A DNA stretch of 38,077 bases, from positions 1 through 38,077 of IMG/VR virus record IMGVR_UViG_3300021185_001442; one strand, given 5' to 3'. The stretch is from a virus. The stretch's first letter is position 1. The number at the start of each line of letters is the position of its first letter. A program made the position numbers and the translations under genes. Below the pieces are notes generated by a model. The model had not been told where the DNA came from. It made no database searches and was given only the letters and a program-made list of their open reading frames with translations. Below, piece after piece: positions 7,401-11,141 of this stretch.

Positions 7401-9204
7401 AGTCTGAATACTGATTGATTAATGCTGCATTCTTAAAATTAAAGTCAGAAGGAGGAGGCCCATTAACTATAAAAGTTGCTCCGCCTTGAGCATTTTGATA
7501 TGAAATATTTTGAGTAGGTGGACCAGCTGGATATTTTTCTTGTAATGCTTGTGATTGTAAAACTTTACCTTCTTTAGAAAGAGCATCTATTATTTGTCCA
7601 TCTTCGTCTTTACCATCTCTTTTAGCCATCATTGCATCAATAGTAGCTTGCCCTCTTGACATAACTTCATTAAATTTACGAGAAAAAGCTTCTTTCGGAC
7701 TTTCTCCGCCTGGCATCGCTGCCCCAATTGCCGATAAAGCTGCAGCTGCGATTGCTTTTGGAAATGCTGCTATCTTCATGAATATACTTAATAGGCTTAA
7801 ACCGATATTTTTAATTATACCACCAAATCCAATATCTGCTATTCCATCTCTTAAACGATTAAAGAATCCAAGAACTGCATTTTTAACAGCGTCAAACATA
7901 CTATCAAATAAATCAGCAAAAGAAAAGCTTTTCATTTTTTCTGCAATACCATCAAACCCAAAAAGACCTAAGAAAAATGCTGGTATAGTTATAACGAAAA
8001 AGTCGAGTAATGAGCCAACTAGCATTCTAAATGCGCCTTTTAAACCATCAAATACACCCGCAATAAATTTATTTAAATTATCTTCTTGGGATTTCATTCC
8101 ATCTATAAATCCTCTAACAAATCCTATAATTCCTAATACTGGTCTTAATATCTGACCAAATACCATACCTAATCTTTGAAATGCTCCTTTAAATTTATCT
8201 AATACACCGAATACAGTTTTTAATACAGGTAGTTTATTAAAGAACATAAATATTTTAGTACCTATGTTTGTAAAATTCTTTCCTACATTTTTTGCAGATG
8301 CAGTTGCAGCGTCTAAACCTCTTGCAAATACAATACCAATTCTTTTAGGTAGATTCATTAACATTCTAAAAGGTTTTAATATCATCTTTACTAATTTATT
8401 GGCACCTTGTCCTACTAATCCAGAGGCTTTAATTTTAGTATCAATTCTACCAAATGCGGTAAATGCTGATTTTCTTCCAGTTAAAAATCCTGTCATACCT
8501 TTTAAAAAGTTACCTACATTAGCTAATGATAACTGCATTAACTTACCAAGGTCTTTTCCAGCATTTAAAATAAATCTTGCCCCTTTTGCAAATACTCCTC
8601 CGCCTTTACCTTCAGGTGAAAATTTAAATGTTTTTGCTACTCTATCTCCAAAGCCTTTAAATACATTTTTTATATTATCAAAGAGTACTGGAAGACCAAG
8701 CGTCTTACCCATGTTTGTAGCGCCTTTAATAATACCTTTACCTATGTTAGCATAGGGAGTCATAAATCCTTTAAAAGCTCCAATAAGAAAACTAAATATT
8801 GCTGTTCTTACAAGGAATCCAAATATTCTACTGCCCTTTTCATCTTTAAACTGCATTTGTAAGAGTCTAAACTGAAGTTTTAATTGTTTGAAGATATCAA
8901 ATAAACTATCATTACGTTCTTCGTCTCTTTTCTTCTCCATACGTCCGCGTAAGAGTTGTTCTTTGTCAGCTTCTAAATCATCTAATCGACCTTCTTTTAA
9001 AGTCATTATTAATTGTTGCATCGCATCTATTTGCGATTGACTCATATTCATAGCATCTTTTTCTAAATGGTCTTGCAGTTCTTTTGAGTATACTGCAGCT
9101 TCTTTAGCCATATCATTTTGGTCACTATTCAAAGTTTTGATACTATCTACCAAATCGTCAAATGGGTTATTTGCGCCGTCTGATACTCCTGATATTGATG
9201 CCAT
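7399..9204 (-). CDS. 29: Probable tail tape measure protein, gp29-like
   Basis: 601 aa, close to the 590 aa of T4 gp29. A long helical, charged N-terminal region (residues about 35-120, DHLEKDAMN...KEQLLRGRMEKKRDEE) is followed by alternating basic-amphipathic and strongly hydrophobic stretches (127-148 and 392-418), as usual for tape measures. It is the last gene of the leftward operon, after tube-fold protein, gp26, gp51 and a membrane protein, matching the usual tube - chaperone - tape-measure order. Role inferred: sets tail length inside the tube and leaves at DNA ejection. Sequence identity with T4 gp29 is not obvious by eye, so the call rests on size, composition and position. The start has AGGAA upstream. 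Confidence 0.7.
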   Translation of the reverse strand: MASISGVSDGANNPFDDLVDSIKTLNSDQNDMAKEAAVYSKELQDHLEKDAMNMSQSQIDAMQQLIMTLKEGRLDDLEADKEQLLRGRMEKKRDEERNDSLFDIFKQLKLQFRLLQMQFKDEKGSRIFGFLVRTAIFSFLIGAFKGFMTPYANIGKGIIKGATNMGKTLGLPVLFDNIKNVFKGFGDRVAKTFKFSPEGKGGGVFAKGARFILNAGKDLGKLMQLSLANVGNFLKGMTGFLTGRKSAFTAFGRIDTKIKASGLVGQGANKLVKMILKPFRMLMNLPKRIGIVFARGLDAATASAKNVGKNFTNIGTKIFMFFNKLPVLKTVFGVLDKFKGAFQRLGMVFGQILRPVLGIIGFVRGFIDGMKSQEDNLNKFIAGVFDGLKGAFRMLVGSLLDFFVITIPAFFLGLFGFDGIAEKMKSFSFADLFDSMFDAVKNAVLGFFNRLRDGIADIGFGGIIKNIGLSLLSIFMKIAAFPKAIAAAALSAIGAAMPGGESPKEAFSRKFNEVMSRGQATIDAMMAKRDGKDEDGQIIDALSKEGKVLQSQALQEKYPAGPPTQNISYQNAQGGATFIVNGPPPSDFNFKNAALINQYSD

Positions 9205-9214
9205 ATTTTATTCC

Positions 9215-9592
9215 TTATTTACCGAATGCTTTACCAGCTTCAGATATACCAAACGACCCTAGTGTTACTACCACAAAGGATGTGTAAATTGTTTCAGAAA
9301 CCTTTAAGTCTAAATCCCATACTAATGCTGTGACTAAATCGGTGATACCGAAACACATCATTAAAAAGAATGATATAAATCCTATGATTGCTTTTTCGTT
9401 TAAGTCATTGTCGTCTAAGAATAAATCCATGAATTTTCTTTTACGAGGTCCTAGTTGCTCCGCAGCACGCCTAGCTTCCTCTTTCATTTCCTTAATTTGG
9501 TCTTCTTGTTCGTCAAGCTTGTCAATCATAGCCATATACTTATCTAAGTCTATTTCTACTTCATTTCTGCTGTTATCTTGATTCTCAGCCAT
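9215..9592 (-). CDS. Two-helix membrane protein between chaperone and tape measure genes (gp28 position)
   Basis: 125 aa. The N-terminal half is acidic and coiled-coil-like (residues 18-47), followed by a basic GPRKRKF. Then come two hydrophobic helices at about 68-91 (IIGFISFFLMMCFGITDLVTAL) and 101-116 (TIYTSFVVVTLGSFGI). The start overlaps the gp51 stop (TAATG) and the tape measure starts 10 nt after it. In T4 the genes run 51-27-28-29, and gp28 is a membrane-associated hub-tip protein. This gene occupies the same relative place, so it may be the functional counterpart, though no sequence match is visible. A holin-like role is an alternative but less likely given the operon. Confidence 0.65.
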   Translation of the reverse strand: MAENQDNSRNEVEIDLDKYMAMIDKLDEQEDQIKEMKEEARRAAEQLGPRKRKFMDLFLDDNDLNEKAIIGFISFFLMMCFGITDLVTALVWDLDLKVSETIYTSFVVVTLGSFGISEAGKAFGK

Positions 9593-9732
9593 TATCCATT
9601 TCTCCTATTTTCCGCTTTTATGCGTTCGTTTTCTTCTGCAATGTGTTCCTGCAAAAGAGCTATGTATATCTCCCTTTCCCACGGTACCATATCATTTAGT
9701 TCTGTTAAACTATACTTATGATGTTGCATCAT
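9592..9732 (-). CDS. 51: gp51-like baseplate hub assembly factor; likely expressed as -1 frameshift extension of gp26
   Basis: A frame of 46 codons from the ATG at 9732 (MMQHHKYSLTELNDMVPWER...) to a TAA at 9594-9592. The YSLTELNDMVPWEREIY core matches the short gp51 proteins of marine T4-like phages. In T4, gp51 is needed catalytically for hub assembly and is not in the virion. No ribosome site precedes 9732. The frame stays open upstream without a stop to the slippery T7 at the end of gp26 and lies in the -1 frame. The expected main product is therefore a gp26-gp51 fusion of about 298 aa, with 18 extra residues (YIGLSHDSL...) between the slip and this ATG. The stop overlaps the next gene's ATG. 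Confidence 0.8.
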   Translation of the reverse strand: MMQHHKYSLTELNDMVPWEREIYIALLQEHIAEENERIKAENRRNG

Positions 9733-9741
9733 TGCAAAATT

Positions 9742-9806
9742 AGTCTTATAATGGTTTACAAGACTATCGTGCGAAAGGCCTATGTAAAAAAACTTTGCAG
9801 ACCTCT
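9742..9806 (-). promoter_or_regulatory. Programmed -1 ribosomal frameshift signal at the gp26/gp51 junction
   Basis: On the - strand the gp26 codons read AGT TTT TTT ACA TAG, so the seven T at 9792-9786 form T TTT TTT in the exact X XXY YYZ register. The SD-like AGAGGT at 9806-9801 lies 8 nt upstream, as in bacterial frameshift sites such as dnaX. A 9-bp stem (AGTCTTGTA with TATAAGACT, one G-U pair, 6-nt loop) spans 9765-9742, 20 nt downstream. That spacing is longer than the usual 5-9 nt. Slipping back one base leads straight into the gp51 frame. Confidence 0.8.
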
Positions 9807-10487
9807 TAGTTCCTGCTCGTTATCTTTGCCACAACTACATTTATAAGTCAAGTTGTGGTTAACTGCCGGCATAGTATTAAAAAAGTCTGTCATTTTCATA
9901 AATTGTACAGAACTTAATGAATCAACAAACTTTGTAAGTGATGCTTTAGATTCATTCTTAGAATCATATACATCATCTTTATCAAAGATTGTATCTATGC
10001 ATGCCATAATCATTCCCATAGCGCTATCAACGCCTTCTTCAGCTTCGGCAAAACGATTTACGTCTTTTACTGAAGGGTATTTCATTACAACACCTACATC
10101 ATCAGTTATCATTATAGTAGTTTCATCTTTTGAAACCACCGGTAAATTTATTTCATCAAAATCGACTGTTACATCGGTTCTCATGTCACATTCTTCATCA
10201 TTACATTTCATAGATAAATCAATCTTTTCACCAACTGATTTAGCTCGTAATGCTAAAAATAAAGTTTCAATGTCAAACATTGCTAAATTTTCAACATCAT
10301 CAATATCATCTACACAAGATTTAATAACATCTATTGTTGACTGCATAATAACCTTTTGGTCATTTGTCTCCATAGCCATCATTAATATCTTTTCTTCCTT
10401 CACTAGGTATGGTCTATACGTCACTGTTTGACCAGTTGACGGTATTTCAATACTATACCTAGCTGTATTTAGCTCTGGTAAAGCCAT
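9780..10487 (-). CDS. 26: gp26, baseplate hub assembly protein (T4_baseplate family)
   Basis: 235 aa (T4 gp26 is 208). The MALPELNTARYSIEIPSTGQ beginning with TYRPYLVKEEKILM is typical of the gp26 family. Four Cys form an apparent zinc knuckle: Cys95 and Cys100 (CNDEEC) in the middle, Cys217 and Cys219 (CSC) near the end. AGGAG lies 8 nt before the ATG. The last codons (SFFT, stop) hold the slippery T7 that would direct a fraction of ribosomes into gp51. By position, after a tube-fold protein and before the tape measure, this gene corresponds to the G part of the lambda G/GT tail chaperones; that parallel is inference. Confidence 0.88.
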   Translation of the reverse strand: MALPELNTARYSIEIPSTGQTVTYRPYLVKEEKILMMAMETNDQKVIMQSTIDVIKSCVDDIDDVENLAMFDIETLFLALRAKSVGEKIDLSMKCNDEECDMRTDVTVDFDEINLPVVSKDETTIMITDDVGVVMKYPSVKDVNRFAEAEEGVDSAMGMIMACIDTIFDKDDVYDSKNESKASLTKFVDSLSSVQFMKMTDFFNTMPAVNHNLTYKCSCGKDNEQELRGLQSFFT

Positions 10488-10505: not shown

Positions 10506-11141
10506 TTATCCAAATATAGATAACGCACTTCTTATTGCGCTACCTGTACTACTTAACGCACCTTGTGGTACGTATTTATCATAAGCAAAACTCACATTCA
10601 ATTTTTGAATCTGGCTAGTACTTTCGTTAGAAAGCGCTACTTCACTCATCGTCACAGGGAATGCTCCCTCCAATTTCACGCCATATATTGGCACGTCTTG
10701 TTCATCTAACTGTTGTATTATTACATCAGTAACTATATCTTCTTTATAAGCGATACAGTATTTATCTGTATCTACTATACTATTTATCCACTTATCAAAG
10801 ATAGTTTTCATATAATAATCATTTGTAAGTAAAAAACTTATTGCAACATCATCATGTATTGTACCGTACGGTATTTTTTTAGACTGTCTTACAGTTTGAT
10901 GTTCAAAAGTACTTATTTGTTTTCCAGGTATTACTACTGAATCACAAAGTAATGATATATCTCTTGGGTCGTTAATTAAATTCTTTGAATTAAAATTACC
11001 TGCGATAGCTGATGAGATAGCTCCTTGCAAATCAAAATTAAATAATGAACCACTTGGTGGTGTAAACATTACATTGAATCTATTAGCTTTTGCTAATCCA
11101 CCTTTTTTACCTATTGTTGATTTTAATCTATCTATGCTCAT
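10506..11141 (-). CDS. Tail-tube-fold protein, probable gp54-like tube initiator
   Basis: 211 aa. The C-terminal part shows the tube-protein signature of the T4 gp19/gp54 group: a GAFPVTMSEVALSNESTSQIQKLNV-type region (residues about 159-184) followed by the SFAYDKYVP strand. The N-terminal part (KANRFNVMFTPPSG...LLCDSVVIPGKQISTFE) is the usual tube beta-sandwich opening. Longer than gp19 (163 aa) and shorter than T4 gp54 (320 aa). Because gp48 is encoded just across the divergent promoter, the best guess is the tube initiator gp54; a second tube protein is the alternative. Its start overlaps the preceding gene's stop (ATGA). Confidence 0.65.
   Translation of the reverse strand: MSIDRLKSTIGKKGGLAKANRFNVMFTPPSGSLFNFDLQGAISSAIAGNFNSKNLINDPRDISLLCDSVVIPGKQISTFEHQTVRQSKKIPYGTIHDDVAISFLLTNDYYMKTIFDKWINSIVDTDKYCIAYKEDIVTDVIIQQLDEQDVPIYGVKLEGAFPVTMSEVALSNESTSQIQKLNVSFAYDKYVPQGALSSTGSAIRSALSIFG

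Follow-up and report, generated by a model that had tools for sequence, protein, structure and literature searches.

The window, the whole stretch of 38,077 nucleotides that was analysed (IMG/VR record IMGVR_UViG_3300021185_001442), carries on its minus strand a tail-tube-fold gene, gp26, gp51, a small predicted membrane protein and a tape measure candidate (Table 1). The 3' end of gp26 reads CTA AGA GGT CTG CAA AGT TTT TTT ACA TAG. The initial annotation had read the last of these codons, AGT TTT TTT ACA TAG, as a T TTT TTT heptamer in slippery register, and this was confirmed at 9786-9792. It had also assigned gp51 to the -1 frame and described that frame as open from the slip on. This frame is indeed open from about 40 nt 5' of the gp26 stop to 188 nt beyond it, through to 9592. 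Its first ATG, at 9732, is codon 18 after the slip and lacks a ribosome-site-like sequence, as had been stated, and the AGAGGT reported 8 nt upstream of the heptamer was found at 9801-9806. The match to the gp51 family phrog_634 (E=2.9e-28) starts near the slip, 5' of any ATG. A fusion made by a slip at this heptamer is predicted to contain the junction peptide SFFYIGLSHDSL; in cyanophage S-PM2, a predicted slip-spanning peptide is, for example, QSFFRISMFYNNLENYYR.

Table 1. Features at the gp26-gp51 junction and its surroundings, with comparable junctions in other loci
Feature	Position	Strand	Remarks
Tail-tube-fold protein 5' of gp26, possibly gp54-like tube initiator	10506-11141	-	phrog_45 tail tube, E=3.9e-37
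gp26, putative short tail assembly chaperone (TAC-N, G-like), 235 aa	9780-10487	-	PF12322
AGAGG, candidate Shine-Dalgarno-like stimulator	9802-9806	-	9-nt gap to heptamer
Slippery heptamer T_TTT_TTT	9786-9792	-	zero-frame X_XXY_YYZ register; T_TTT_TTN at 169/170 loci
gp51 / T part	9592-9786	-	-1 frame; 64 residues, giving a predicted 298-aa fusion (234 + 64)
AGGCCTTT across and after gp26 stop	9774-9781	-	near-invariant in T7 lineage; can pair with 9799-9806
Downstream stem-loop, candidate stimulator	9734-9772	-	z -2.95; -12.5 kcal/mol; starts +13 from heptamer
Small predicted membrane protein between gp51 and tape measure candidate	9215-9592	-	translation
Tape measure protein candidate, 601 aa	7399-9204	-	position and length only
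Ackermannviridae-type junction loci	L088 3270-3474; L183 2260-2480; L182 1900-2120; L084 3180-3405		

The gp26 product belongs to PF12322 (E=9.9e-60; 202 bits against a curated cut-off of 24.5) and matches the gp26-family profile phrog_150 (E=7e-66). Its AlphaFold2 model has a mean pLDDT of 91. When the model was compared with the PDB by VIA-align, the top match was 3fgx (Z 8.1, rmsd 4.1, 85 residues), followed by 2ob9, the tail assembly chaperone of HK97 (Z 7.6, rmsd 3.6, 84 residues). Both matches are confined to about 85 N-terminal residues (within residues 1-95), and unrelated folds can reach their Z of 7-8; later rows were 5ir0 (Z 5.3) and then unrelated chains from 4.5 down. The resemblance of the predicted N-terminal domain to the HK97 tail chaperone fold is supportive. 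The gp26 and gp51 profiles had no meaningful match among the sequences of solved structures.

Among the neighbours, the counterpart of the tube-fold gene in Pelagibacter phage Mosig is annotated as tube initiator. The small membrane protein matched no family above cut-off, and the tape measure candidate had no convincing family match. The same gene order is found in Rhizobium phage RHph_I1_18, where the counterpart of the candidate is annotated as tape measure. Long open frames on the plus strand (7778-8155 and 8264-8755) lie antisense to the candidate and are probably shadow frames.

Conservation of the slippery heptamer and protein-type evolution of the -1 frame

A gp26 search found 80 loci, 79 of them readable across the junction (100 to 50% identity), and T_TTT_TTT stood at an identical distance from the stop in all 79. 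A wider set, which adds cyanophages, KVP40-type vibriophages and Aeromonas, Citrobacter, Rhizobium and Desulfovibrio phages, brought the total to 170 loci; 169 of these have an in-frame T_TTT_TT[T/C/G/A] at the homologous place, the sole exception being T4. The junction alignment that the initial annotation had proposed as a check thus bore it out, with an open -1 frame conserved, and heptamer and register kept at 169/170 loci and in all of the 110 representatives (<90% identity), which are mutually related, so that averages over them overstate independence. The representatives comprise 81 T6C, 26 T7, 2 T6G and 1 T6A heptamers. The first slip codon is TTT in 110/110, compared with 72% among other Phe codons (nominal p 2e-16, which ignores relatedness). 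As a control, 453 other ORFs from the same loci were examined; a heptamer near the ORF end occurred in 3, and one accompanied by a -1 frame that stays open for 100 nt beyond the stop in none. The heptamer at the end of gp26 is therefore not a chance occurrence. In the cultured Pelagibacter phage Mosig, the heptamer is T_TTT_TTC and the -1 peptide is the same; the gp51 annotated there starts too late. In RHph_I1_18 (L087 2500-2545), gp26 extends about 10 codons beyond the homologous slip site, which reads T_TTT_TTA and is overlapped by T_TTA_AAC.

The alignment of the T part begins exactly at the slip Phe-Phe in 110/110 representatives, including the Rhizobium phage with the longer zero frame. 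In the window's own lineage, characterized by T7 (25 members), diversity between the slip and the ATG at -1-frame codon positions 1, 2 and 3 is 0.081, 0.029 and 0.344, and of the codon differences that involve a single base, 84% are synonymous, where chance predicts 21%. Judged by this codon pattern, the stretch is evolving as protein in the -1 frame, i.e. it is translated, in agreement with the earlier argument that the codons between slip and ATG would otherwise be waste. A start codon with a Shine-Dalgarno-like word within 25 codons was absent in 99/110 representatives, as predicted for most relatives, and in the window lineage no start codon of any type precedes codon 18, where 24 of the 25 members lack a ribosome site.

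These observations bear on whether gp51 might be a separate small protein, with its own start coupled to gp26 termination and an incidental heptamer. Databases do annotate gp51 as its own gene, an ATG overlaps or just follows the stop in KVP40-type phages and Rhizobium I34, and many cyanophages have an ATG three codons after the slip. However, relatives have CTG, CTC, TTA or CTA at that cyanophage site, which is a hydrophobic codon rather than a kept start, and codons 5' of the first start in the window lineage are conserved as protein although no ribosome site was found in 24/25. Independent initiation was therefore rejected for this lineage; it would also leave the conservation of the heptamer unexplained, and as a general account of gp51 we consider it improbable. 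Slippage of the polymerase on the T run, rather than of the ribosome, would produce the same frame by one inserted T and suits a T7 homopolymer, but in most representatives the run stops at six Ts, and a C (81/110) or a G or A comes next. Six Ts are short for polymerase slippage. Conservation falls on X_XXY_YYZ in codon register, which the T6C, T6G and T6A variants keep, and on these grounds transcriptional slippage was rejected as even less probable than separate initiation. An in-frame fusion does exist in T4, as would suit a broken gene whose -1 frame reflects a sequencing error or a decaying fusion; the same junction, however, recurs in 169 contigs and genomes of cultured phages, and the sequence on either side of it is under purifying selection, so the comparative data already contradict a broken gene and its probability is negligible.

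Candidate stimulators around the slip

The RNA 3' of the slip is more stably folded than versions shuffled synonymously in the -1 frame (mean z -2.0, SEM 0.14, over the 110 mutually related representatives). A stem of 9-12 bp, about 5-9 nt 3' of the heptamer, is frequent in cyanophages. In 103/110 representatives, a Shine-Dalgarno-like word starts 13-14 nt 5' of the heptamer. Compared with synonymous shuffles, it is stronger overall (z -1.14), with z -0.23 in the window lineage; extra selection on the word was therefore rejected for that lineage, in which protein sequence explains it, and is supported in cyanophages. The initial annotation had also described a 9-bp stem-loop 20 nt downstream. 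Such a structure exists, with a 10-bp core (9742-9765, one G-U) beginning 20 nt after the heptamer within a longer stem, but it is kept in only about 16 of the 25 lineage members and is far from the slip, and was rejected as a conserved stimulator there.

The T7 lineage has a near-invariant AGGCCTYT at the gp26 stop. Gly is encoded by GGC in 25/25 members at this place, compared with 9% of gp26 Gly codons, and the Leu codon just after the stop is CTY in 25/25. Pairing of 9774-9781 with 9799-9806 would enclose the slip; 7 or 8 of the 8 pairs can form in 25/25 members, and the consensus pair probability of the helix reaches up to 0.83. A synonymous-shuffle test on the upstream side of this helix was not significant (p ~0.11). 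It is conceivable, though we regard it as unlikely, that frameshifting in the T7 lineage depends on this AGAGG-CCTYT helix, unlike the closely spaced stem-loops of cyanophages, and that Ackermannviridae reach the same fusion via a non-standard slip site. In Ackermannviridae and relatives, the gp51-type tail is kept in the -1 frame and conserved 5' of any ATG; the slip position reads ATT TTC, GTT TTC or CTT TTT, with no X_XXY_YYZ heptamer, and there is one PF12322 copy.

A probable short and long tail assembly chaperone by frameshifting or duplication

In T4 gp51 (249 aa), residues 1-201 match PF12322 (E=7.7e-55) and are followed by the gp51 tail. The protein matches phrog_150 over its full length, whereas T4 gp26 consists of the domain only. 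A profile of the -1 tail matches the C termini of gp51 in T4, Phi1, Moon, 60AhydR15PP and avDM5 from about the slip-homologous residue and does not match gp26. T4 genes 26 and 51 are divergently transcribed and have no slippery site. On its sequence, T4 gp51 is a natural single-frame gp26-gp51 fusion. Relatives with separate, non-slippery genes had been named as a result that would count against frameshifting; this arrangement does occur in T4, but T4 gp51 is itself the full-length fusion and so supports the proposal. In the model of T4 gp51, the tail is helical (196-203, 207-221, 226-230 and 234-248), and no chaperone structure was among the matches listed in a fold search with this model.

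Two PF12322 copies are present in T4, Phi1, Moon, 60AhydR15PP, avDM5 and Campylobacter phage F379, and one in every examined phage with the slippery site. Because of this distribution, frameshifting and duplication look like alternative routes to a short and a long chaperone. In F379, the two PF12322 genes lie about 10 kb apart (L089 1856-2596 and L194 727-1404) and one has an in-frame gp51-type tail; this duplication is perhaps separate from that of T4. In the record of Citrobacter phage Moon (L179 2153-3791), a joined, GT-like chaperone is assigned to genes resembling T4 gp27/gp28, which conflicts with the gp26/gp51 assignment and looks mistaken.

Taken together, gp26 and gp51 very probably form one frameshifted tail assembly chaperone gene with a short TAC-N and, by a -1 slip, a TAC-NC fusion. 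The evidence for gp26 as the short, G-like chaperone and for gp26-gp51 as the long, GT-like one, made by a predicted frameshift, is very strong, and the proposal that the pair is the T4-type version of G/GT is supported by heptamer conservation, the T4 fusion, complementary copy number and the HK97-chaperone-like fold. Most ribosomes would terminate at the gp26 TAG, yielding the 235-aa TAC-N. In a minority, at T_TTT_TTT, both Phe tRNAs would re-pair one base back, and these ribosomes would continue in the -1 frame to give a 298-aa TAC-NC, in which 'gp51' is the C-terminal 64 residues. If lambda gpG/gpGT is a guide, the short form may coat the tape measure protein, and the tail part of the fusion may recruit tube or baseplate-hub subunits. 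The occurrence of slippage, its rate and these binding roles are what we infer beside the direct observations of conservation, register, protein-type evolution before the ATG, fold resemblance and an in-frame counterpart in T4.

The likeness to lambda gpG/gpGT (PMC5009743) is that one gene yields both chaperones, short and long, by a -1 slip, predicted in the window, and lies 5' of the tape measure gene, in the window a candidate. Unlike lambda, the window belongs to a contractile-tailed phage and its PF12322 chaperone carries an additional beta region at the C terminus. The slip site of the window is T_TTT_TTT, and the slippery sequence of lambda is different and G-rich. Frameshifting is said, in the abstract of Vladimirov and colleagues, to be seemingly conserved in several T4-like groups, with T4 using genes 26 and 51. 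As cited elsewhere, Vladimirov, Gautam and Davidson 2022 (Virology 566:9-15) identified genes 26 and 51 as the T4-like tail assembly chaperones (PMC10885494, PMC12846349), with a short gene plus a long, fused one in some T4-like phages (PMC10885494) and poly-T slippery sequences in TAC-N genes (PMC12846349). The supposition of the initial annotation that the gp26-gp51 frameshift was undescribed in T4-like phages is, on these citations, wrong; a literature search on gp26, gp51 and frameshift together returned nothing relevant. As far as these citations describe the 2022 system, the gene family and the short/long idea are the same, and the window differs as an uncultured marine lineage with T_TTT_TTT and a near-invariant AGGCCTYT at the stop. 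Since T4-like chaperones had, by the same citations, already been reported, the window case adds to a known arrangement and is well supported. Possibly new details are the T7-specific lineage with AGGCCTYT at the stop, the stimulatory stem-loops of cyanophages and the Ackermannviridae -1 tail without a standard heptamer. In Pakpunavirus Adele and Andersonviridae, a conserved poly-T motif is found at the TAC-N end and the -1 frame is open in all genomes (PMC12846349); a poly-T motif at the TAC-N end with an open -1 frame is common to these phages and the window, whereas the families and the slip motif (GTTTTT) differ. T4 has the same domain and tail in gp26 and gp51 as the window but in two divergent genes, duplication replacing frameshifting, and T4 gp51 is reported to be required yet absent from the particle (PMC3004832).

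The result corrects a widespread annotation, in that the 'gp51' of marine T4-type phages would be the tail of a fusion and not a separate truncated gene with shifting starts. These phages are among the commonest viruses in the sea. In public annotations of relatives (L082, L093, L094, L195), gp51 is 57 aa long, is a short ORF with a late start, or is missing, seemingly for want of a true start. In 2010, cyanophage gp51 was remarked to have only about 20% of the length seen in other T4-like phages, unexplained there (PMC3037559), and a frameshift fusion would explain this short gp51. The family offers a clear evolutionary pair, with either one copy and frameshifting or two copies and no slip site.
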